Positions 22,042 through 32,540 of a DNA stretch of 64,000 nt are shown here, piece by piece. Source of the DNA: Caldalkalibacillus uzonensis. GTDB lineage: Bacteria; Bacillota; Bacilli; Caldalkalibacillales; Caldalkalibacillaceae. A program made the translations under genes and the position numbers. The DNA lies in assembly GCF_030814135.1 (NCBI RefSeq), contig NZ_JAUSUQ010000004.1, positions 62,001-126,000 of the forward strand, written 5' to 3'. Below the pieces are notes generated by a model. The model was not told the DNA's origin and ran no database searches. It saw only the letters and a list, made by a program, of their open reading frames with translations. Each line of letters opens with the position of its first letter. Positions within the stretch are counted from its first letter, which is position 1.

Positions 22042-23316
22042 TCAAATTTGTTTTGATAAAAGTTCTATGATCAACAAAAAGTTCCTTATAATGTGATACG
22101 GATCCTTGACAGGAAGGGCAACCACCTTTTCTACAGGGTGACCTTTGCGGTTTCGGATTTGAATCCATTCTCCACCAGGTTGATTCTCGTTCGGGAATGT
22201 ATCAAATACATATCGTTTGGTTTGTTTGTACAGTCGCAAGAATTCATTGTCTCTGGTATAAGCATAAGCGAGCAGTGTAGCGTACAACGCTTCAGAATGT
22301 GGCCACCACAATTTAGTATCCCACGTATCAAGAATGAGAGTTTCAAAGGGGTTACCGTTGGTCACACCTTTCGGCGGTCCTCCTTCTTTGTCAACAAAGC
22401 GAAGCAGTCCGCCGTGAAGTTCATCCCAGCCAAGCTCAAAGGCCTTTTTGATGGCTATACATACCTTATGAATATAATCCTCCCGTTCCAACTCTTCCGC
22501 TGTCGTCATGACGAACCACATGCTTTCGATCGCATGTCCTGGATTCATATGCCGCGTCAACAGTTCATCTTCGTTTTTTTCTGGATCTTGCGCGATTATT
22601 TCGGCTATACTGCCATCCGCACGATAAAATTCTTCCATAACAATACACATATACCTGCCACTAGCCTCTAACAGTTCCTCCCTTCGTTCGTGTCGAAAAG
22701 TTTTCAATACCCGCCCTAATTCCTGCGTAACATTGAGCATAATCATTGCTACCGCATGAGCTTTGTAGCCTTCTGGAATGGGGTAGGGTTCTGTCCTGTA
22801 ATCACCACGCCTTAACCTCTCACTGAGATGGTCGTATAGACGAAGGGCTTCGTCCAATACTTGTTCATCCCGACTAACACCGGCATATTCAGTAAAACCC
22901 AGGATGACGAAACAGTCCGCGTAAATACTTATGTCCATTCCTTTCCCGGGGATACTTTCTTTTTTTTCCCCTTCTTCCGAAAGCAAAAAAGCACAGTTTC
23001 CATTTTCCAAAAAAGCATTATGCTGTAAAAAACGCACAGTCTGATATGCTTGATCTAAAAAAAGGCTTCCATCACCGTCGATGATTCCTTCTTGCATGAG
23101 ACGGCCCAGCCTGGACCAGATCCAGATTAGTCTTCCTTGTGACCAGACGTATTTGTCTTTACTGACAAGTTCTGTACCTGCATTATTATAGCAGGTATAA
23201 ATGCCTCCGTGCTTGTGATCGAAAGCTTTCGTCCAGAAGGGCATAATCACATTTTGCAGATGTGATTTGTAAAACTCCAACTCCTCATTACGGCAGGTTG
23301 ACATAACAAACTTCAT
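22042..23316 (-). CDS. AGE family epimerase/isomerase (N-acylglucosamine 2-epimerase fold)
   Basis: A 424-residue (alpha/alpha)6-barrel protein of the AGE superfamily, whose members interconvert N-acylglucosamine and N-acylmannosamine, epimerise cellobiose, or isomerise aldoses and ketoses. WSQGRLIWIWSRLG near residue 58, the catalytic histidine in NPGHAIESMW and the second histidine in WWPHSEALYA are visible. The ATG follows AAGGGG. It lies downstream of the DapA-like gene and before a terminator. Given the NagA/NagB-like genes nearby, a GlcNAc/ManNAc-type reaction is a reasonable guess. Confidence 0.83.
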   Translation of the reverse strand: MKFVMSTCRNEELEFYKSHLQNVIMPFWTKAFDHKHGGIYTCYNNAGTELVSKDKYVWSQGRLIWIWSRLGRLMQEGIIDGDGSLFLDQAYQTVRFLQHNAFLENGNCAFLLSEEGEKKESIPGKGMDISIYADCFVILGFTEYAGVSRDEQVLDEALRLYDHLSERLRRGDYRTEPYPIPEGYKAHAVAMIMLNVTQELGRVLKTFRHERREELLEASGRYMCIVMEEFYRADGSIAEIIAQDPEKNEDELLTRHMNPGHAIESMWFVMTTAEELEREDYIHKVCIAIKKAFELGWDELHGGLLRFVDKEGGPPKGVTNGNPFETLILDTWDTKLWWPHSEALYATLLAYAYTRDNEFLRLYKQTKRYVFDTFPNENQPGGEWIQIRNRKGHPVEKVVALPVKDPYHIIRNFLLIIELLSKQI

Positions 23317-23370: not shown

Positions 23371-24444
23371 TTATGACCCGGCTAACCAATGATCAAGATT
23401 TTTCCGGACAAAATCATCATCATGTAAATGGGGGTATTCCCTGTATATCCGCTCAATTTCCTCCTTTTGACCTGGTGACAATGTCTCTTTTGGATTCAGA
23501 CACCATATTCCTTCTAATAAACCTTGTCTTCTCAATACTTCGTGAATGCCAGCAATACAGCCTTTAAACTGATTGGCAGCATCAAATAACGCAGCATTGG
23601 CATCTGTTATTTCCACGGCACGTTGCAACAATGCGGCAGGAATCTGCTTATGGGCATTGCGAATGTTCTTGATTTCTTGAAATAGCTCAACGGCTTTTTT
23701 CGTCCAAACAGCCCAATGTCCCAATAGACCGCCAACGATTTGCTTTTCCACCGTTTTGCCATTGACCTGAAAGCGATAAGTTGTTAGCAAATCGATAACA
23801 ATATTGTCATCATTGCCAGTATATAAGGCAATTTCATCCCTTCTTGAAGAGTGGCAAACAGCTCTCACCACATCAATGGTTTGATACCTATTAAATGGTG
23901 CTATTTTTATAGCCATAACACCCGGAATTTCGACAAATTTTTGCCAGAAATCATAACTGAAAACCCTTCCTCCTACGGAAGGCTGCAGGTAAAACCCGAA
24001 CACCGGTATCACTTCAGCAACTGACTCTGTCCTTTTCAACAGATCTTCTTCCGATAAATGTTCAAGCCCTCCCATGCTCAACAGCCCAAGGTCATAACCC
24101 AGACTTGCAGCTAAAGCAGCCTCCTTTAACGCCTGTTTTGTTGGACCACAGATTCCGGCCACTTTGATAAATGGTCTTGACAAGTTTGCCTCGTTTACTT
24201 CTTCGGCAGCCAGCCGCAGAACATCTTCAAACAGATTAATTTTTGAGTCCCTAATTTCGAACTGTGTCGTATGCACACCAATGGCAATCCCTCCTGCCCC
24301 TGATGCGATATAATAACGGGTCAGTGCCCGTTGCCGACGTTCATCCAGCTCCCTCCATTCATTAAGTGCTAAAGGGTGAGCAGGGATCACTGTCCCTTCG
24401 TGCAATAATTTTCTGGTCTTCGGGTTTATCTGCACACTCCCCAT
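23371..24444 (-). CDS. dihydrodipicolinate synthase (DapA) family aldolase/dehydratase
   Basis: A 357-residue class I aldolase-fold protein. The Schiff-base lysine is in VMAIKIAPFNRY near residue 190 and the catalytic tyrosine in FGFYLQPSVGGR near 152. It is longer than DapA (about 290) with an extra C-terminal helical part. Family members cleave N-acetylneuraminate or 2-keto-3-deoxy sugar acids, or dehydrate keto-deoxyglucarate. It follows the SDR-fold gene by three bases, so the two are translationally coupled. A role in breaking a keto-deoxy intermediate is plausible but unproven. Confidence 0.82.
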   Translation of the reverse strand: MGSVQINPKTRKLLHEGTVIPAHPLALNEWRELDERRQRALTRYYIASGAGGIAIGVHTTQFEIRDSKINLFEDVLRLAAEEVNEANLSRPFIKVAGICGPTKQALKEAALAASLGYDLGLLSMGGLEHLSEEDLLKRTESVAEVIPVFGFYLQPSVGGRVFSYDFWQKFVEIPGVMAIKIAPFNRYQTIDVVRAVCHSSRRDEIALYTGNDDNIVIDLLTTYRFQVNGKTVEKQIVGGLLGHWAVWTKKAVELFQEIKNIRNAHKQIPAALLQRAVEITDANAALFDAANQFKGCIAGIHEVLRRQGLLEGIWCLNPKETLSPGQKEEIERIYREYPHLHDDDFVRKNLDHWLAGS

Positions 24445-24447
24445 GGA

Positions 24448-25464
24448 TCAAAACACCCCTTCTCTCTCTTGGAAATTTGTCATTTTATTATAGATCTCAC
24501 CGTCGGCATGCACCCATTCGGCTGTCCATTCCATCATTTGTCTTAATGAGACACGAGGATAGCCAAAAATACGGTGGGCCTTGGATGCATTACTTAACAA
24601 AGCTGTATCAGCTTCCTCGTTTACAAATTCCGGACGGACACCAAACATTTCTCCGAACCGTTCCGCTAACCAGCGGATTGACACCAGTTCAGGTCCTGTA
24701 ACATTCAGGACGGTCGGTGGAGAAGTGCAAATTTTTAGTGCACGTAAGGCCATCTCATTTGCATCTCCTTGCCATATGACATTGACATGGCCCATGGTCA
24801 GATCAATGGGTTTTTGTTCATACACGGATTTAGCAATTTCAAGTAAAACCCCATAACGCATATCAATAGCATAGTTAAGACGAAACTGTACAATCGGAAT
24901 GTTATATTTATGGGAAAAATATTCAAAAACCCTTTCTCTTCCTAAACAAGATTGTGCATACTCACCTATGGGGCCTGGCAGATGTTCTTCCGATGCCCCT
25001 CCCAATCGAACCTGTGTTAAAGGATATACATTACCTGATGAAAAAGATACGATGCGAGAATGCTTGAATTTTTCCGCTACCCGGCCTGGCAAATAGACGT
25101 TCATGGCCCAAGTGTAAAACTCTCTTCCTAATGTTCCAAATTTATTACCTGCCATGTAAATAACGTTCTTCACTTCAGGAAGAAGTTGCAACTGTTCATC
25201 ATCTAACAAATCAATAGCAATGGTCTCTATACCGTGATTTTCCAAATCTTTTTGCAGTTCCTTGGAAGAGAAACGTGAAACTCCAATGACTTTTTTGTTT
25301 ATGCCAGCTTTTCTTATGGCATTTTGAGCCAATTTAGCCAGACTGGGACCCATTTTCCCTCCCACTCCGAGGATGATGATATCCCCTTCTATCTCTGCCA
25401 TATCCTGTACCAAACGGGGGGATGGGTCAGCCAATTTTTTTTCTAGCTCTTGAATCGTTTTCAT
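24448..25464 (-). CDS. NAD-dependent epimerase/dehydratase family protein with altered active site
   Basis: A 338-residue extended-SDR protein. A nucleotide-binding loop IILGVGGKMGPSLAK begins near residue 30, preceded by an unusual 28-residue N-terminal helix. VSFSSGNVYPL carries the serine/threonine position, but the YxxxK catalytic pair reads YAQSC, so the lysine is missing. The C-terminal part resembles sugar epimerases (VLNVTGPELVSIRWLAERFGEMF). It is the first gene of the operon with the aldolase and AGE epimerase; the ATG follows AAAGGAGG. The function is unknown. Confidence 0.8.
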   Translation of the reverse strand: MKTIQELEKKLADPSPRLVQDMAEIEGDIIILGVGGKMGPSLAKLAQNAIRKAGINKKVIGVSRFSSKELQKDLENHGIETIAIDLLDDEQLQLLPEVKNVIYMAGNKFGTLGREFYTWAMNVYLPGRVAEKFKHSRIVSFSSGNVYPLTQVRLGGASEEHLPGPIGEYAQSCLGRERVFEYFSHKYNIPIVQFRLNYAIDMRYGVLLEIAKSVYEQKPIDLTMGHVNVIWQGDANEMALRALKICTSPPTVLNVTGPELVSIRWLAERFGEMFGVRPEFVNEEADTALLSNASKAHRIFGYPRVSLRQMMEWTAEWVHADGEIYNKMTNFQEREGVF

Positions 25465-26000: not shown

Positions 26001-26015
26001 ATGGGAGGAATGCGT

Positions 26016-27413
26016 GTGTGTTCAGATGCCGTTCAAACTAACGCCTTGCATCAGGATAAAGACGGGATTGCTATCGGCGTGATTGGGCCTGCTGAGATCA
26101 TTCGCCTAATACGTGATGCCCTGAAGGCTTTTCCTTCATTTATTCCCGTGTTCCGGGAATATGAAAACGAATCGGAGGTACCACAAAAAACAAAAGATAT
26201 TATTGATCACGTAGAAGTGTTGTTATTTTCTGATTATCCTGCCTACAAACATGCTACAGAAGCAATGCAGCTCAAGATTCCTGCTCATTATATTCCACTT
26301 ATGGGAACCGGTCTTTACCGATCCATCTATCGCATCAAAAACTGCTATGATCTGAAAAGCCTTTCTGTCGATTCTCTGACAGAACAATATGTGCAACAAA
26401 TTCTGAAAGAATTAGGGGAGTCAGTAACTGCTTTGCATTTTTACGGCCATTCTATCCAACTGTCCACTGACGAAGTTATTGCATTTCATAAAGAAAATTA
26501 CGAAAATGAAAAATGTTCCGTTTGCCTGACAGGCATCAAAACGGTTGCCGAAGGCTTAACACGGCTCGGTATTCCTAATGAATGGGTTTTGCCTACCCGT
26601 CAGGATATCATCGTTTCACTTGAACGGGCATTATTGTCCACCGAGACTCGACGTAATAAAGAGTCGCAAATTGTTGTCGGCATCATCCACATAGATGAAT
26701 ACCGAAAGCTGATGGATCAAAGCACTTCGCAACATGAAGCTCAGACATTAAAATTAGAAATATATCGTATTCTCTTAGATTATGTCAAACAATTGGACGG
26801 CCACCTTATTCAATTGGATGGAGAGGAATTTTTATTTTTTACTACTAGAGGTGTCTTTGAAAGGGAAACACGCGGGTATAAATTTATCCCGTTATTGAAT
26901 GATACACAAAAACTGTTAGGTCATTCCCTGAGTATCGGAATTGGTTTTGGACGGACTGCCACCGATGCAGGGATGCACGCGAGAATGGCTTTGCGTCAAT
27001 CGAAGGATACAGGGGGCAATGTTTGTTTTATTGTCAGGGAAGATAGAAGCGTCATCGGACCAGTGGAGATGACCGATCCGATGATTTATGAACTTTCTGT
27101 CACTGACAACCATTTACTTGAAAAAGCAAAAAAAGCCGGTATGTCAGCAACCTATATGAGCCGGTTGATGGCCCAAGTAACCCGATATGGCAAAATCGAT
27201 TATACACCGCAGGAACTCGCATCCGTTCTCGGAATCACTGTGAGAAGTACACATCGTATCCTCGTTCAATGGATGGATGCCGGACTTGTAGAGATTGTCG
27301 GAGAAGAAAAATTTTCTCATCGGGGACGCCCGCGACAAATATACCGATTCACCTTCATGGATGAACAAAGAAACAGAAAACACAAGGACAAATATAATTT
27401 TGAAGACAGATAG
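26016..27413 (+). CDS. transcriptional regulator: sensor region, degenerate GGDEF-like domain and winged helix
   Basis: About 465 residues, on the plus strand amid minus-strand genes. Residues 15-215 form an alpha/beta domain of unknown type (IAIGVIGPAEIIRLIRDAL). Residues 220-350 resemble a nucleotidyl-cyclase/GGDEF fold, with VVGIIHIDEYRKLM, LDGEEFLFF in the place of the GGDEF turn, and SIGIGFGRTATDAGMHARMAL. The final 110 residues hold a winged helix (YTPQELASVLGITVRSTHRILVQWMDAGLV). The GTG at 26016 is preferred since GGGAGG stands seven bases before it. An ATG at 26001 is the alternative. The ligand and targets are unknown; the divergent sugar operon is the likely target. Confidence 0.68.
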   Translation: MCSDAVQTNALHQDKDGIAIGVIGPAEIIRLIRDALKAFPSFIPVFREYENESEVPQKTKDIIDHVEVLLFSDYPAYKHATEAMQLKIPAHYIPLMGTGLYRSIYRIKNCYDLKSLSVDSLTEQYVQQILKELGESVTALHFYGHSIQLSTDEVIAFHKENYENEKCSVCLTGIKTVAEGLTRLGIPNEWVLPTRQDIIVSLERALLSTETRRNKESQIVVGIIHIDEYRKLMDQSTSQHEAQTLKLEIYRILLDYVKQLDGHLIQLDGEEFLFFTTRGVFERETRGYKFIPLLNDTQKLLGHSLSIGIGFGRTATDAGMHARMALRQSKDTGGNVCFIVREDRSVIGPVEMTDPMIYELSVTDNHLLEKAKKAGMSATYMSRLMAQVTRYGKIDYTPQELASVLGITVRSTHRILVQWMDAGLVEIVGEEKFSHRGRPRQIYRFTFMDEQRNRKHKDKYNFEDR

Positions 27414-27480: not shown

Positions 27481-28734
27481 CTAGAAGAATAAATTTTTGA
27501 TCGTGTTTCCTGCTAAAACTAAAAGCACCAACAGCCCTATGATTCCAATAACATTTTTAAAAGTTGAATTTCTAAGATCTCCCATAATCTCTTTATCATT
27601 AGCTACTACATAAAGACTGATCCCGATTAAAGGCACAACAACAATCGTAATAGCTTGAGCAAATAAAATGAGTTGAATAGGTAAACCTTGAAAAAAGATC
27701 GCTACTCCTGCTCCAATGACCATAACGGCGATAATACAATAGCGAACGCCTTTATCACTCAGTTTACGGCCTAGCCCTAAAGCATCGGCTAACAACGCTC
27801 CACCAATGGTGGCATTAGCAGTAAGTGAAGAAAAAGCAGCTCCCCATAGACCAAGCATGAAGATAACCGTTGACCAACTTCCATAAAGTGGCCCAATGGT
27901 TTTTCCCAAATCAACCACTGAATTAACTGTAATTCCTTGAGGAAGTAGGACTTTTGCAGCACAAACCATTACCATACCTGAGATTAAACCTAGAATCAAT
28001 ATGCCTGAATAACTTTCTATAATCCCGTCTTTGGCGTTTTTCCTGTCCCAACCTCTTTCTTGCACAAAATAAGACTGATAAAACGCTCCAACAACTGAAA
28101 ACGTTGTCGCAAACAATGCAATTATGAGCAACATCGAACCATGCGGAATATTCGGAACAAAACCTCGAAATAAGGATGATAGGTTTGGTTTTACTACAAA
28201 CAAGGTAATCAGAAATGACATTAGCATAAGCGCGACCAGCACGAGCATCAGTTTCTCTAAGACTTTATACAAGTTCTTCACAAATAGCAAAACAATGGCC
28301 AGTAATGTAAATATTAGCGTCCAGATGATCGACGATGTATTTGTTAATACGCCAAATGCCGCACCCGATCCTATAGCATTTCCAGCTTGAAACGATGCAG
28401 TTACCAGAAATGCCCCTATACCGATAATAGACGTAACGGTTTGCCCCCACTTGTCACGAATGGTAGATAACAAGGTCTGATCAGTAGCCATTCCAATCCT
28501 GGCACTCATTTCAGTAAAAACCATCATGAAGATCGTAGCAATTACAAGCACCCAAATTAATTGGTACCCATGAAGGGCTCCAATGTTTGTAGAAACTGTC
28601 AAGCTTCCAGGGCCTAACACTAACGCAGCTGTGATAACTGCAGGCCCCAACGAATGTAACCAGTGAGCAAAAACTGAGTGTGTAGGTTGTGTGTCAACAC
28701 CTTCTTTGACAGTATGTTTTTCAGTACTAGCCAT
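27481..28734 (-). CDS. Nramp-fold transporter without the canonical metal-binding motifs
   Basis: A 417-residue membrane protein with about 11 segments that aligns with the Nramp family (APC fold), including IWTLIF and the conserved EMSARIG after segment 2. The segment-1 DPGN motif reads GPGS (residues 41-44), and the segment-6 metal-binding AxxMPH region reads ATTFSVV (209-215), so neither the aspartate nor the methionine ligand is present. It is therefore probably not a manganese or iron importer. It follows a secreted propeller protein gene in the same direction and ends tail-to-tail with the regulator. The substrate may be an organic solute. Confidence 0.78.
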   Translation of the reverse strand: MASTEKHTVKEGVDTQPTHSVFAHWLHSLGPAVITAALVLGPGSLTVSTNIGALHGYQLIWVLVIATIFMMVFTEMSARIGMATDQTLLSTIRDKWGQTVTSIIGIGAFLVTASFQAGNAIGSGAAFGVLTNTSSIIWTLIFTLLAIVLLFVKNLYKVLEKLMLVLVALMLMSFLITLFVVKPNLSSLFRGFVPNIPHGSMLLIIALFATTFSVVGAFYQSYFVQERGWDRKNAKDGIIESYSGILILGLISGMVMVCAAKVLLPQGITVNSVVDLGKTIGPLYGSWSTVIFMLGLWGAAFSSLTANATIGGALLADALGLGRKLSDKGVRYCIIAVMVIGAGVAIFFQGLPIQLILFAQAITIVVVPLIGISLYVVANDKEIMGDLRNSTFKNVIGIIGLLVLLVLAGNTIKNLFF

Positions 28735-28790
28735 ATCTTTTCCTCCTATCTCTTAATCTCCTCCTCGATTAACCCAAAACAACTGATGAG

Positions 28791-28827
28791 ACGACTGTCC
28801 GTTTGCGTGGAGCAGGCGGACAGTCGT
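28791..28827 (-). other. stem-loop between propeller and Nramp-fold genes
   Basis: A perfect 11-bp dyad (arms 28791-28801 and 28817-28827, 15-nt loop) begins five bases past the propeller stop codon. On the minus strand the 3' side lacks a T-run, so it may be a processing or attenuation element between the two genes. On the plus strand it is followed by TTCTTT, but no plus-strand gene precedes it. Confidence 0.55.
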
Positions 28828-28831
28828 TTCT

Positions 28832-31093
28832 TTATCTATTTTCCCACTCCTGCAGTAGTGTTTCCCCGGTCATATTCAGGGTATCTTTCGCATCTTGGGA
28901 AACATATTTGTCTAAGGCCGGGTTATTCAAATGATTAAGGAATCTACGCAAATGTTTAATAGCCTGTGTAACTCTCCCTTCTTTCTCATGATACATGGAT
29001 TGCTTGATACTGTTTTTCAGTTGAGTGTATAAAGGGGGTTCCAAGTTACCGGTCTTCTTATAAAGCTCAACAAGTTGCATAACCGTTTCAGAGCTTACCG
29101 GTTCATCTTCATACTTCAGCTTATAGACGTACAATTGTGTAGCAATTTGAGAGAAATAAATGTCACCCATGTAATCTTGGGCAAAATACGATGCACCATC
29201 CACTAGTGTTTCCACTTCCCAAGTTTCCGGATCAAGTTTAAAGATGTTGTTGACCGCTCTTCCGTACAAATAACCGTCCTTATGGAAATTGAGGTACCCT
29301 CCTGCCCAGAACGTAGTGCCCCATTCATACGGATATAATTCTTTTAACTGCACAACTTCTCTCGTCTCTGGATTAAATTTGAAAATGTATCCATAGGTCA
29401 GTCCCCACAACATTCCGTTCTCATCAAAGGCCAATGCCGAAATTGCTTGTTCGCCAGGGATAAGCGAACCCTCCCATACTTTCTCTTTCTTCTCAACATC
29501 CCAAATAAATAGCTTTCCTTCTGTTTCCACAGGATTAATGCCAATCCCACCGTATATGGATGTCCCTCCATAAATAAGCCCGTCTTTGTAAGCTAACGAA
29601 ATCACACTATGATTTTCAACAACATTACGAAAGACTTCTGTTTCACCTGTTTCTGGGTCGTAAAAACTTAAAGCTCCTTCCAGACTTCCTCCCTTGGGAA
29701 CCGTCCCTATAGCCAGATAGTTACCTGCATCCGCAAAAGCGAAAGGTCGATCCTGGCCGTTACTGCTTAACTCTGCGACTTGTTTAGGATTCTTTCCATA
29801 ATTCCACGGTTCAGAGGGGTCATATTCCCAAATTTGTCCGTCTGGATAATTTCCGGTGTACAACTTTCCTTGATAGGTAGCCATCGCTTCGATTTGTCCG
29901 GGACCGTATAACATTTCAATTTGTTTTGTACTCGTATCGATCCTCGCCATAGCACCAGGTGATAAGTATCCGCCAACATAAATATTACCGTCTGGACCTA
30001 AATGGATCGAGCGAATATCTACGGGTGACCCAAGAACGTCTCCCTGTATAATCTTGTTGTTCCCGGTTTCCGGATTGTAAATATAGTAGCGACCTCTTAA
30101 ATTAGTACTCACTAAACTGAGTCCCGGAAAATTATCGTCATCTATTTTGTACCATCCATAGCTGCGGTCCGTTCCAGATATAGAGAATCCTGTCGGACCT
30201 GACTCTTTTGTCACGACGTCAAAGTAATAAAGTTTATTATCAACTTTAAAATACGTTTTATTACTAGGTCCTAACGGAGAAGCATCCCAGCCGTTAGCAT
30301 TTTTGAATGCATCGATCCATTCTCTTGTTTTCGTATCGTAGACCAGCATTGTGCTGCTGGGTGTCACACGTGCAAAAAGAAATCCTTCCACATAAGACAT
30401 GTCATATACCTCTGTATCACTACTGTACTCTTCCGGCAAGGGTATAATTTCTTTTTCCCCTGTTTCTACATCCAATTCGACTAAGTGTGCTTGCCTGTTA
30501 CCCGTACCAGCGTAAATTTTTCCATTACCGTAAGCTACGCTACGAACATACCATTCAGATTGAACCATTTGCCCGTAATCCCTGAACTGATTTGTTTCAG
30601 GGTCATATTGAAACACCTTACCATTGGGGTAGGTGCCTCCATAAATTTTTCCTTTATCATCCGCTACTAATCTCCAAAGGTGTGTCTCTGAACTGATTGG
30701 CCTCCCTAAGTTTTCTATGTTATCCATGCCCGGGATATAGCGATATAAATTACCGTTCCTCTGCGAACCAATATACAGTGTACCATCCGGGGCCACGGTT
30801 AATCCCCAGGAAGTGTGTGCTCCTTCCAATGGGAAATTGTCTACCCTTTCTCCAGTTTCAACGCCAATAATGTTGAGATTGGGAGGGGAACCGTTAGCAA
30901 CGACATACATCCAGTTTTCACCATTAGGCCCTTTCCCGTAAGCAGCATGGGGAATCACAACAGAGTTTATAGCTGTGCCTAAGTGTTCAATCCGTTCTTC
31001 AATATCTTCTGCAACCGTCTTATTATAAAATCCGAAACTCACAATCATAATCATAATTGTCATAACAACTTTTCTTAACCAACAACTTTTCAT
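28832..31093 (-). CDS. secreted beta-propeller - FIMAH-type protein
   Basis: A 753-residue exported protein, paralogous to the one at 7.8-10.6 kb but lacking the N-terminal carbohydrate-binding module. A signal peptide occupies residues 1-28 (cleavage near VAEDI). Blade repeats run from about 35 to 675, such as GTLYIGSQRNGNLYRYIPG, KIYGGTYPNGKVFQYDP and LYTGNYPDGQIWEYDP. The last 70 residues (KNSIKQSMYHEKEGRVTQAI...) match the FIMAH-type domain. The ATG follows AAAGGGGTGAT. It heads a unit with the Nramp-fold gene. The role is probably outside the cell on a polysaccharide, as lyase or binder; this is inference from the fold and the sugar context. Confidence 0.75.
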   Translation of the reverse strand: MKSCWLRKVVMTIMIMIVSFGFYNKTVAEDIEERIEHLGTAINSVVIPHAAYGKGPNGENWMYVVANGSPPNLNIIGVETGERVDNFPLEGAHTSWGLTVAPDGTLYIGSQRNGNLYRYIPGMDNIENLGRPISSETHLWRLVADDKGKIYGGTYPNGKVFQYDPETNQFRDYGQMVQSEWYVRSVAYGNGKIYAGTGNRQAHLVELDVETGEKEIIPLPEEYSSDTEVYDMSYVEGFLFARVTPSSTMLVYDTKTREWIDAFKNANGWDASPLGPSNKTYFKVDNKLYYFDVVTKESGPTGFSISGTDRSYGWYKIDDDNFPGLSLVSTNLRGRYYIYNPETGNNKIIQGDVLGSPVDIRSIHLGPDGNIYVGGYLSPGAMARIDTSTKQIEMLYGPGQIEAMATYQGKLYTGNYPDGQIWEYDPSEPWNYGKNPKQVAELSSNGQDRPFAFADAGNYLAIGTVPKGGSLEGALSFYDPETGETEVFRNVVENHSVISLAYKDGLIYGGTSIYGGIGINPVETEGKLFIWDVEKKEKVWEGSLIPGEQAISALAFDENGMLWGLTYGYIFKFNPETREVVQLKELYPYEWGTTFWAGGYLNFHKDGYLYGRAVNNIFKLDPETWEVETLVDGASYFAQDYMGDIYFSQIATQLYVYKLKYEDEPVSSETVMQLVELYKKTGNLEPPLYTQLKNSIKQSMYHEKEGRVTQAIKHLRRFLNHLNNPALDKYVSQDAKDTLNMTGETLLQEWENR

Positions 31094-31111
31094 ACTATCA
31101 CCCCTTTACAA

Positions 31112-31292
31112 TTATAGATCCAAGTCAAAAAAAGTGGTCACTTCTTCAGCAACACCATCAAGGTCATCAGGCCAAGGGTAATCTTGGGTTGTTGTCCCTT
31201 TCGGATGATTACCTCCCGCGCAGTTAATCAAAATATCACATGATCCTAAATGAGTATGAATCTCCTCTCTCGCTGCCATTAAGGCACGTTTG
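31112..31292 (-). pseudogene. uxuB: remnant of SDR-type fructuronate reductase (uxuB), internal fragment
   Basis: Minus-strand reading gives about 60 codons of the SDR D-mannonate oxidoreductase that follows uxuA in Bacillales, including CDILINCAGGNHPKGTTTQ, the NAG-type motif. The first ~70 codons and everything after TTFFDLDL are missing; a stop codon follows directly. Its start is fused in another frame to the end of the uxuA remnant. It cannot encode an active enzyme. It corresponds to the very segment that is deleted in the second uxuB copy at 63.3 kb. Confidence 0.72.
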
Positions 31293-31918
31293 TCTCTCCT
31301 GTAATCCTAATGTTCCGGCAGTAGGCAAAGTGAGTGCGTCCCTTTTTGCCAAAGTATCTGATCATCTCTGGAAGATTATTGTCAGGATCTGCTCCTAATG
31401 AACCTGTACAAAACGTTAACCCGTGGTTGGAACTATCGACCAGGCTGAATAAACGTTCTAAATTTGCTTGGTTGGTGATAATGCGGGGCAAACCGAAAAT
31501 GGACCATGGCGGGTCATCAGGGTGAATAGCCATTTTAACACCTACTTCATCAGCCGTGGCTATAATTTGTTTTAAGAAATATTGCAGGTGATGCCATAAG
31601 TCTTCTTCTGATACGCCTTGATATTGATCAATTAATACTTTTAACTCGTCTTTTCTGTAACTGACATCCCATCCCGGAAGTTCTAAATCCCCCACCAGCG
31701 GGTTCATCTTTTGTATGGTTTCATCCTCGTAAACCAGGGTGGTTAAACCATTAGGCATTTGGTACTCTAAATGGGAGCGTGTCCAGTCAAAGACAGGGCA
31801 TAAAGTTGTAACAAACAACCTTAATTCCCGCTTTGGCCAGATTTCGCTATGTCGCTTGGTAGTTGGCAATATACTTATCTCTGGTGGGTAAACCAAGTTT
31901 AATATCACATGTACATTA
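31280..31918 (-). pseudogene. uxuA: remnant of mannonate dehydratase (uxuA), central part
   Basis: Clear mannonate dehydratase sequence: CPVFDWTRSHLEYQMPNG, GWDVSYRKDELKVLI, MAIHPDDPPWSIFGLPRIIT and LTFCTGSLGADPDNNLPEMIRYFG. About 75 N-terminal and 90 C-terminal codons are absent. The upstream part DIKLGLPTRDKYIANYQAT is in another frame and is cut by a TAG, with a further frameshift before VFDWTRS. The C-terminus is truncated and fused to the uxuB remnant. The gene is broken. Confidence 0.82.
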
Positions 31919-32540
31919 TTATTTTACTGATTTAACCGAACATTCCTTTAGGAGTGAATTCTAATTGCCTCTACTGTCAAGACTAAAAAATAATATAATT
32001 CATATTATTTTTAATAGTTAATCTATTTAGATCCCCTTGTTCCTCTTACCCGTTGGCTACTCCAAATTGAAATAATTGTTCGCACTCTGCAGAAAAATGG
32101 CCTGACCATTTTATTGCTTTAATATTATTAATTATTATTTAAATATTTACGGTATCTTGCATCTAAAAAGAAATTTAATATTTATTTAATTTTAGTTTAT
32201 GACCCACTATTAGCTTAAAGCAAGACTATAAAATGTCTATTAAATGTCTCTAAATTGTCTATAAATCAGTGTTTTAGACAAGGAAACGGGGACCATGTTT
32301 CCCTTTTAATTTTTCCTCATCATGGTAAAACCCCTGAACGTTTTGATTCAAAAAAGAGGCTTTTTCAACCAAGATCCCATCCTTCAAAAACGAGGATGGG
32401 ATCTATTGAATAACGTATTAAATTGAAAAATGGCAGCGCTTATTCCAGTTCCTTTGCTGTATTGGTTGAGAAGACTGCACAGCAAATCAAAGCGGACCGG
32501 CCGGTAATAATTGTTTTCATCGTATGTTCCATCAGAAAGT
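31919..32540. other. AT-rich gap between uxuA remnant and alpha-xylosidase gene
   Basis: No supportable gene in 620 bases. Positions 31920-32330 are AT-rich and featureless. A hairpin at 32372-32404 is listed separately. On the minus strand 32395-32530 an open stretch without a start codon reads LSDGTYDENNYYRPVRFD and continues; it looks protein-like and could be a gene remnant, but I do not recognise it. Confidence 0.4.
32372..32404 (-). terminator. stem-loop, possible terminator of the alpha-xylosidase operon
   Basis: A perfect 12-bp stem, AGATCCCATCCT and its complement (arms 32372-32383, 32393-32404, 9-nt loop). On the minus strand it is followed after 8 bases by GAAAAAGCCTCTTTTTT. It lies 137 nt beyond the GH31 stop, the first strong terminator-like structure there. 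Confidence 0.6.

Follow-up and report, generated by a model that had tools for sequence, protein, structure and literature searches.

Nramp-related proteins share the fold and the Pfam family of the canonical Nramp metal importers, with the DPGN and MPH metal-binding motifs and the proton-path residues all absent (PMC12873925). In a tree rooted with neurotransmitter-sodium symporters, they are paraphyletic to the canonical Nramps (PMC12873925). Genetic evidence connects some of them with manganese. Overexpression of YcsG, encoded in the pxp operon of B. subtilis, raised cellular Mn, and the protein was renamed MntG (PMC10448178), while A. baumannii needs MumT, encoded in a urea operon, to accumulate Mn (PMC5050338). 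C. glutamicum does not grow on 5-oxoproline without PxpT, although the authors of that study allow for metal transport as well (PMC13274462). Oxidised chitin (N-acetylglucosaminate) is handled by the ong cluster, which has an SSS-family protein as its inner-membrane carrier (PMC9537276). The literature that we searched held no description of the conserved catabolic operon reported below, and we found no work treating Nramp proteins in polysaccharide utilisation loci.

The permease analyzed here is encoded in a 64,000-nucleotide stretch of DNA from Caldalkalibacillus uzonensis, called the window below (Table 1). It is probably an Nramp-related inner-membrane secondary carrier that imports a small sugar-derived solute, likeliest a carboxylate, for a pathway involving an epimerase-like protein and an aldolase. 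The clade to which it belongs differs from the described Nramp-related proteins in having motifs of its own and a conserved catabolic operon, and is a new, operon-linked variant inside a known but poorly understood group.

Table 1. Features of the window around the permease gene, with positions counted from the first nucleotide of the window.
Feature	Position	Strand	Remarks
N-acylglucosamine 2-epimerase family protein	22042-23316	-	54 bp after the aldolase gene; not conserved in other loci
N-acetylneuraminate-lyase-like aldolase (partner 2)	23371-24444	-	357 aa; Lys180 and Tyr152 invariant
Extended-SDR epimerase-like protein (partner 1)	24448-25464	-	338 aa; Cys173 replaces the catalytic Lys of YxxxK
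GGDEF/HTH-type regulator	26001-27413	+	Conserved beside the enzyme pair in Bacilli
Nramp-fold permease, intact	27481-28734	-	417 aa, ATG start; Pfam, predicted model, fold matches
TM6 break motif TTFSVV	28090-28107	-	Residues 210-215, in place of ATxMPH; alignment, helix break in model
TM3 motif FQAGN	28378-28392	-	Residues 115-119; alignment
TM1 break motif GPGS	28603-28614	-	Residues 41-44, in place of DPGN; alignment, helix break in model
19-pair hairpin between propeller and permease	28788-28830		Possible terminator
Secreted beta-propeller, C-terminal FIMAH domain	28832-31093	-	Homologues in six to seven related loci
D-mannonate dehydratase (UxuA) gene, broken	31100-32000	-	Matching pieces in different frames
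Short SDR-like fragment	31112-31279		After the broken UxuA pieces

The permease matches the Pfam Nramp family PF01566 with an E-value of 1.4e-78. It passes the general Nramp_1 model (100 against a cut-off of 50) and falls far under the cut-offs of two MntH-type NCBIfam models (122 against 430 bits and 57.5 against 272.5). The AlphaFold model (pLDDT 86.9) shows an Nramp fold whose helices break at residues 40-41 and 212-213. The solved structures closest to it are EleNRMT and DraNramp, with TM-scores of 0.83-0.87, and amino-acid carriers of the same superfamily are more distant fold matches. Gene decay was considered and rejected, as the reading frame is intact, unlike that of the neighboring mannonate dehydratase.

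Although the fold is retained in the predicted model, the residues that define the canonical SLC11 family are not. The GPGS segment of TM1 aligns with the DPGN of MntH and with the DAGG segment of EleNRMT, so that the canonical DxxN is missing, and G and S/K stand at its ends in every clade member having the segment. In TM6, where A/CxxM(PH) is expected, Ser213 occupies the position of the metal-binding Met230 of DraNramp, and Val214-Val215 stand at the expected Pro-His. Ser, Ala, or Val fills the Met position in 27 of 31 aligned clade sequences; Met is outside the three commonest residues there, and it is absent from the listed motifs of the relatives. The Asp and Glu of the TM3 proton path are likewise replaced, Asp109 of E. 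coli MntH by Gln116 and Glu112 by Asn119, with Asn at the Glu position in all 31 aligned clade sequences. As judged from these residues, the permease has no canonical proton path.

A genome scan yielded 37 relatives with about 39-58% identity, mostly from Bacteroidota and some from Bacilli. Their motifs read GP[GS][SK] in TM1, FQxGN in TM3, and TxF[SAV]xxxxYQxY in TM6. The replacements are common to all 38 aligned relatives, and none of the 37 has the Asp, Asn, or Met at the metal sites, the fragment L036 lacking the TM1 segment. Seven clade members besides the window protein were found among 301 Bacilli genomes, again without these residues, and a clear score gap separates the clade (1e-157) from the next Nramp-type proteins (1e-74). 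The pattern is not due to chance, because all fetched relatives show the same replacements, and recent motif loss in a single gene was rejected because the pattern is common to them all. The alignment of all relatives thus bears out the first-pass annotation of this DNA, which had reported GPGS in place of DPGN and no metal-binding Met in the sixth segment.

We placed the clade in a tree of 88 proteins, built with no outgroup root. MntH (100/100), NRMT-like proteins (100/99), and the pxp-adjacent GPGF proteins (100/100) form separate groups, and a branch with support 99/95 splits 54 sequences with a Gly-rich TM1 loop, the clade included, from NRMT and MntH. A group supported at 100/99 unites the clade with two haloarchaeal proteins and two outliers; by itself, the clade is not one resolved group in this tree and reaches 0.999 in a faster one. 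A DHDPS-family gene adjoins the genes of the outlying relatives L072 and L189.

EleNRMT is the best match to the permease in the PDB in both sequence and fold, and it too has an altered binding site. NRMTs differ, however, in retaining the TM1 Asp, the TM3 Glu, and the signature DxxG-TxxA/T. The permease lacks the TM1 Asp, reads TxxS in TM6, and falls outside the NRMT group, and NRMT membership was rejected on both motif and tree. PxpT and YcsG resemble the permease in being Nramp-related proteins in an organic-acid operon, and the pxp-adjacent proteins read IGPGF or GPAF, likewise without D, N, and M. They sit on a separate branch with a different TM6 sequence, their partners are pxpABC and not the epimerase-like/aldolase pair, and no pxp genes were found in the window or among the neighbors of the clade loci. 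What the permease does share, with its PF01566 match and its lack of canonical metal and proton motifs, is the definition of the Nramp-related group. Four to five further sublineages in our trees and alignments also lack the metal motifs. The earlier statement that the protein has lost both motifs is therefore misleading. Absence is the rule in the Nramp-related group, and since the rooted published tree makes that group paraphyletic to the metal importers (PMC12873925), published work points the other way on the direction of change, and "does not have" is the better wording.

The sugar cluster and the secreted propeller protein beside the permease, both noted in the first-pass annotation, are confirmed by ORF and Pfam evidence. 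The propeller, whose FIMAH tail gave the only useful match in a sequence search of the PDB, is weak ground for a substrate when taken alone, and it may not share one transcript with the permease, given the hairpin between them. The real partner of the permease is the enzyme pair at 23371-25464, which had not been named. In most of the 37 loci, clustering of the neighbors placed two genes after the permease, one for an epimerase-like protein (about 338 residues) and one for a DHDPS-superfamily protein (about 352); the pair was absent beside the permease in 8 of these 37 first loci. In the window, a regulator on the opposite strand separates the permease from the pair. This regulator has a degenerate GGDEF-like domain and an HTH and lies beside the pair in more than 12 Bacilli loci.

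The linkage is close. Across 35 loci from Bacilli and Bacteroidota with both the permease and the epimerase-like gene (34 distinct loci, as L017 and L134 are apparently from the same genome), the two genes lie on one strand in 35/35. They are directly adjacent in 26/35, where a median of 15 bp separates them, and have one gene between them in 9/35. The epimerase-like and aldolase genes are themselves adjacent in 53 of 53 loci. Among the 301 Bacilli genomes, the epimerase-like gene occurs in 27 overall and in all eight that carry the permease clade, a co-occurrence with a hypergeometric probability of 1.5e-9, calculated with relatedness ignored. In one genome with the permease (G286), the epimerase-like gene is apparently split by a frameshift (L108, L109).

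Both partners depart from their families at the active site. In partner 1, the YxxxK motif of the extended SDR proteins is replaced by YxQSC, with Cys in 24 of 26 sequences and Lys in none. In partner 2, the Schiff-base Lys and the Tyr of the lyases are present, but the GSTGE carboxylate-binding loop is not, GVHTTQF standing where the lyase has GGSTGE. By alignment to DHDPS, Val157 lies at the position of the substrate-binding Arg. The predicted structure of the aldolase most resembles that of N-acetylneuraminate lyase (about 20% identity), and the protein bears a C-terminal extension. A sialic acid lyase operon proper, suggested by the lyase-like aldolase and the epimerase at 22042, was rejected, given the changed carboxylate loop and the N-acylglucosamine 2-epimerase family gene that is not conserved elsewhere. 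Both partners may run chemistry unlike that of their families, and the linkage points to a catabolic pathway, with two altered active sites, that is apparently undescribed.

Loci that hold the pair without a nearby permease provide a further clue. There are 18 of these; 13 carry carbohydrate ABC permeases, and two others carry an AbgT-like transporter and an MFS-like protein, respectively, with the families read from sequence only. Such replacement would be expected of a permease that takes up the substrate of the pathway. The pattern is not clean, as the window and a few other permease loci have an ABC sugar importer in the cluster too, and there the permease is not the sole route of uptake. 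These importers would also suit a permease that releases a pathway product, as an exporter or overflow valve. That role is very improbable, since importers substitute where the permease is missing, and the Bacteroidota permease accompanies SusC/SusD, whose partner step is import across the inner membrane. That the permease would carry an organic solute and not a metal is well supported by the conserved gene order, the replacing transporters, and the organic operons of its relatives. The earlier proposal of an organic solute, made from gene order with the propeller, gains its support from these other grounds. PxpT, as a candidate 5-oxoproline carrier, serves as a precedent.

The Mn results for YcsG/MntG and MumT, both Nramp-related and both in metabolic (nitrogen) operons, mean that the absent D, N, and M do not by themselves exclude a metal role. 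The permease could still import Mn or Mg, through a site unlike DPGN/MPH, to feed metal-dependent enzymes of the operon. EleNRMT moves Mg and Mn with an altered site, and a genome-wide search found the permease to be the sole Nramp of its genome. We nevertheless consider a metal importer unlikely. NRMTs retain the TM1 Asp and TM3 Glu, and the clade has neither; organic-solute transporters occupy the loci without the permease; and for the pxp-linked clade there is also evidence on 5-oxoproline. To our knowledge, neither core partner enzyme comes from a metal-requiring family, which also counts against a metal role. Elsewhere, the genome encodes two ZnuA-type binding proteins and an MntR/DtxR-type protein, and with these binding proteins it need not depend on the permease for Mn. 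The first-pass annotation had taken Mn or Mg transport by a close homologue with the same motifs as the finding that would overturn an organic solute. The genetic evidence for YcsG/MntG and MumT goes part of the way, from elsewhere in the group, but by gene context YcsG belongs to a different clade from the permease.

For the organic solute, the neighboring genes favor an N-acetylated amino-sugar acid as the candidate substrate class. In the Bacteroidota loci with the permease and both enzymes, SusC and SusD occur in 17 loci each, a PQQ-type aldose dehydrogenase-cytochrome c fusion (GSDH) in 11, and a NagX-type acetyltransferase in 5. Further neighbors there include GH20, homologues of NagP and NagB, a NagA-type amidohydrolase, and M20 deacylases. 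Among Bacilli, an M20 deacylase occurs in several loci, both subunits of a serine-dehydratase-type ammonia-lyase (SDH alpha/beta) in three, and GH20C enzymes in others. These family names were assigned from one tested member per cluster. No more than about half of the Bacteroidota loci have amino-sugar genes, and GH20 is a common family in this phylum.

There is a sizeable, though lesser, chance that the substrate is instead a hexuronate or other sugar acid, a nonulosonic acid, or an oligosaccharide breakdown product. The broken mannonate dehydratase gene in the window, the heparinase II/III, sulfatase, and Gfo/Idh/MocA genes adjoining the haloarchaeal relatives, and the closeness of the aldolase fold to N-acetylneuraminate lyase would all agree with such a compound. 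The recurrence near the core genes of M20 deacylases, the ammonia-lyase, GH20, and Nag genes speaks for the amino-sugar acid. The two possibilities are divisions of the favored organic-solute reading, and neither contradicts it.

With an N-acetyl-amino-sugar acid as substrate, uptake and breakdown could proceed as follows. The permease would retain the LeuT fold with its TM1 and TM6 breaks, and the GPGS loop would be similar to the G-x-G loop with which amino-acid carriers of the same superfamily bind carboxylates. In some loci, the M20 deacylase would then remove acetate and the serine-dehydratase-type ammonia-lyase would remove ammonia before aldol cleavage. The neighboring genes would suit a pathway in which an N-acetyl-amino-sugar acid is deacetylated, deaminated, and finally split by aldol cleavage. 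In outline, some loci resemble the ong cluster, where hexosaminidase, deacetylase, and deaminase lead to a 2-keto-3-deoxy acid. They differ from it in the carrier, which is of the SSS family in ong, and in the enzymes, which in ong come from other families (PMC9537276).

The database name for such proteins is "Nramp family divalent metal transporter", a label also borne by the relatives that we inspected in plasmid records. Should members of the clade carry sugar-derived acids, many annotations and metabolic models would have to be corrected. The clade would also open to testing the long-standing question of how an organic-solute carrier of the APC superfamily gave rise to a metal carrier. Tentatively, Nramp-related proteins with a Gly-rich TM1 loop (GPGS, GPGT, GPGF, GAGD) might as a class be carriers of organic acids, amino acids, or sugar acids, with metal transport arising within them when the loop became DPGN. 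Were this so, thousands of divalent-metal-transporter annotations would be wrong. The GPGF/GPAF proteins lie beside 5-oxoprolinase genes in 5 of 5 cases, and in our alignment this pxpABC-adjacent clade also lacks D, N, and M.

Other Nramp-related genes with a Gly-rich loop likewise lie among genes of organic metabolism. Seven of the GPGT genes fetched from Bacilli (L066, L068, L070, L071, L073, L079, and L081) lie beside a gene for an arginase-family ureohydrolase, with the family confirmed for one, and a guanidino compound could be a candidate substrate of these proteins. Three GAGD genes (L176, L177, and L178) all lie between cysteine synthase/cystathionine-type genes and peptide ABC genes, with the families again confirmed for one. 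On a plasmid of Haloferax mediterranei, a GPGT gene (L192) directly precedes hydantoinase/oxoprolinase A and B genes.
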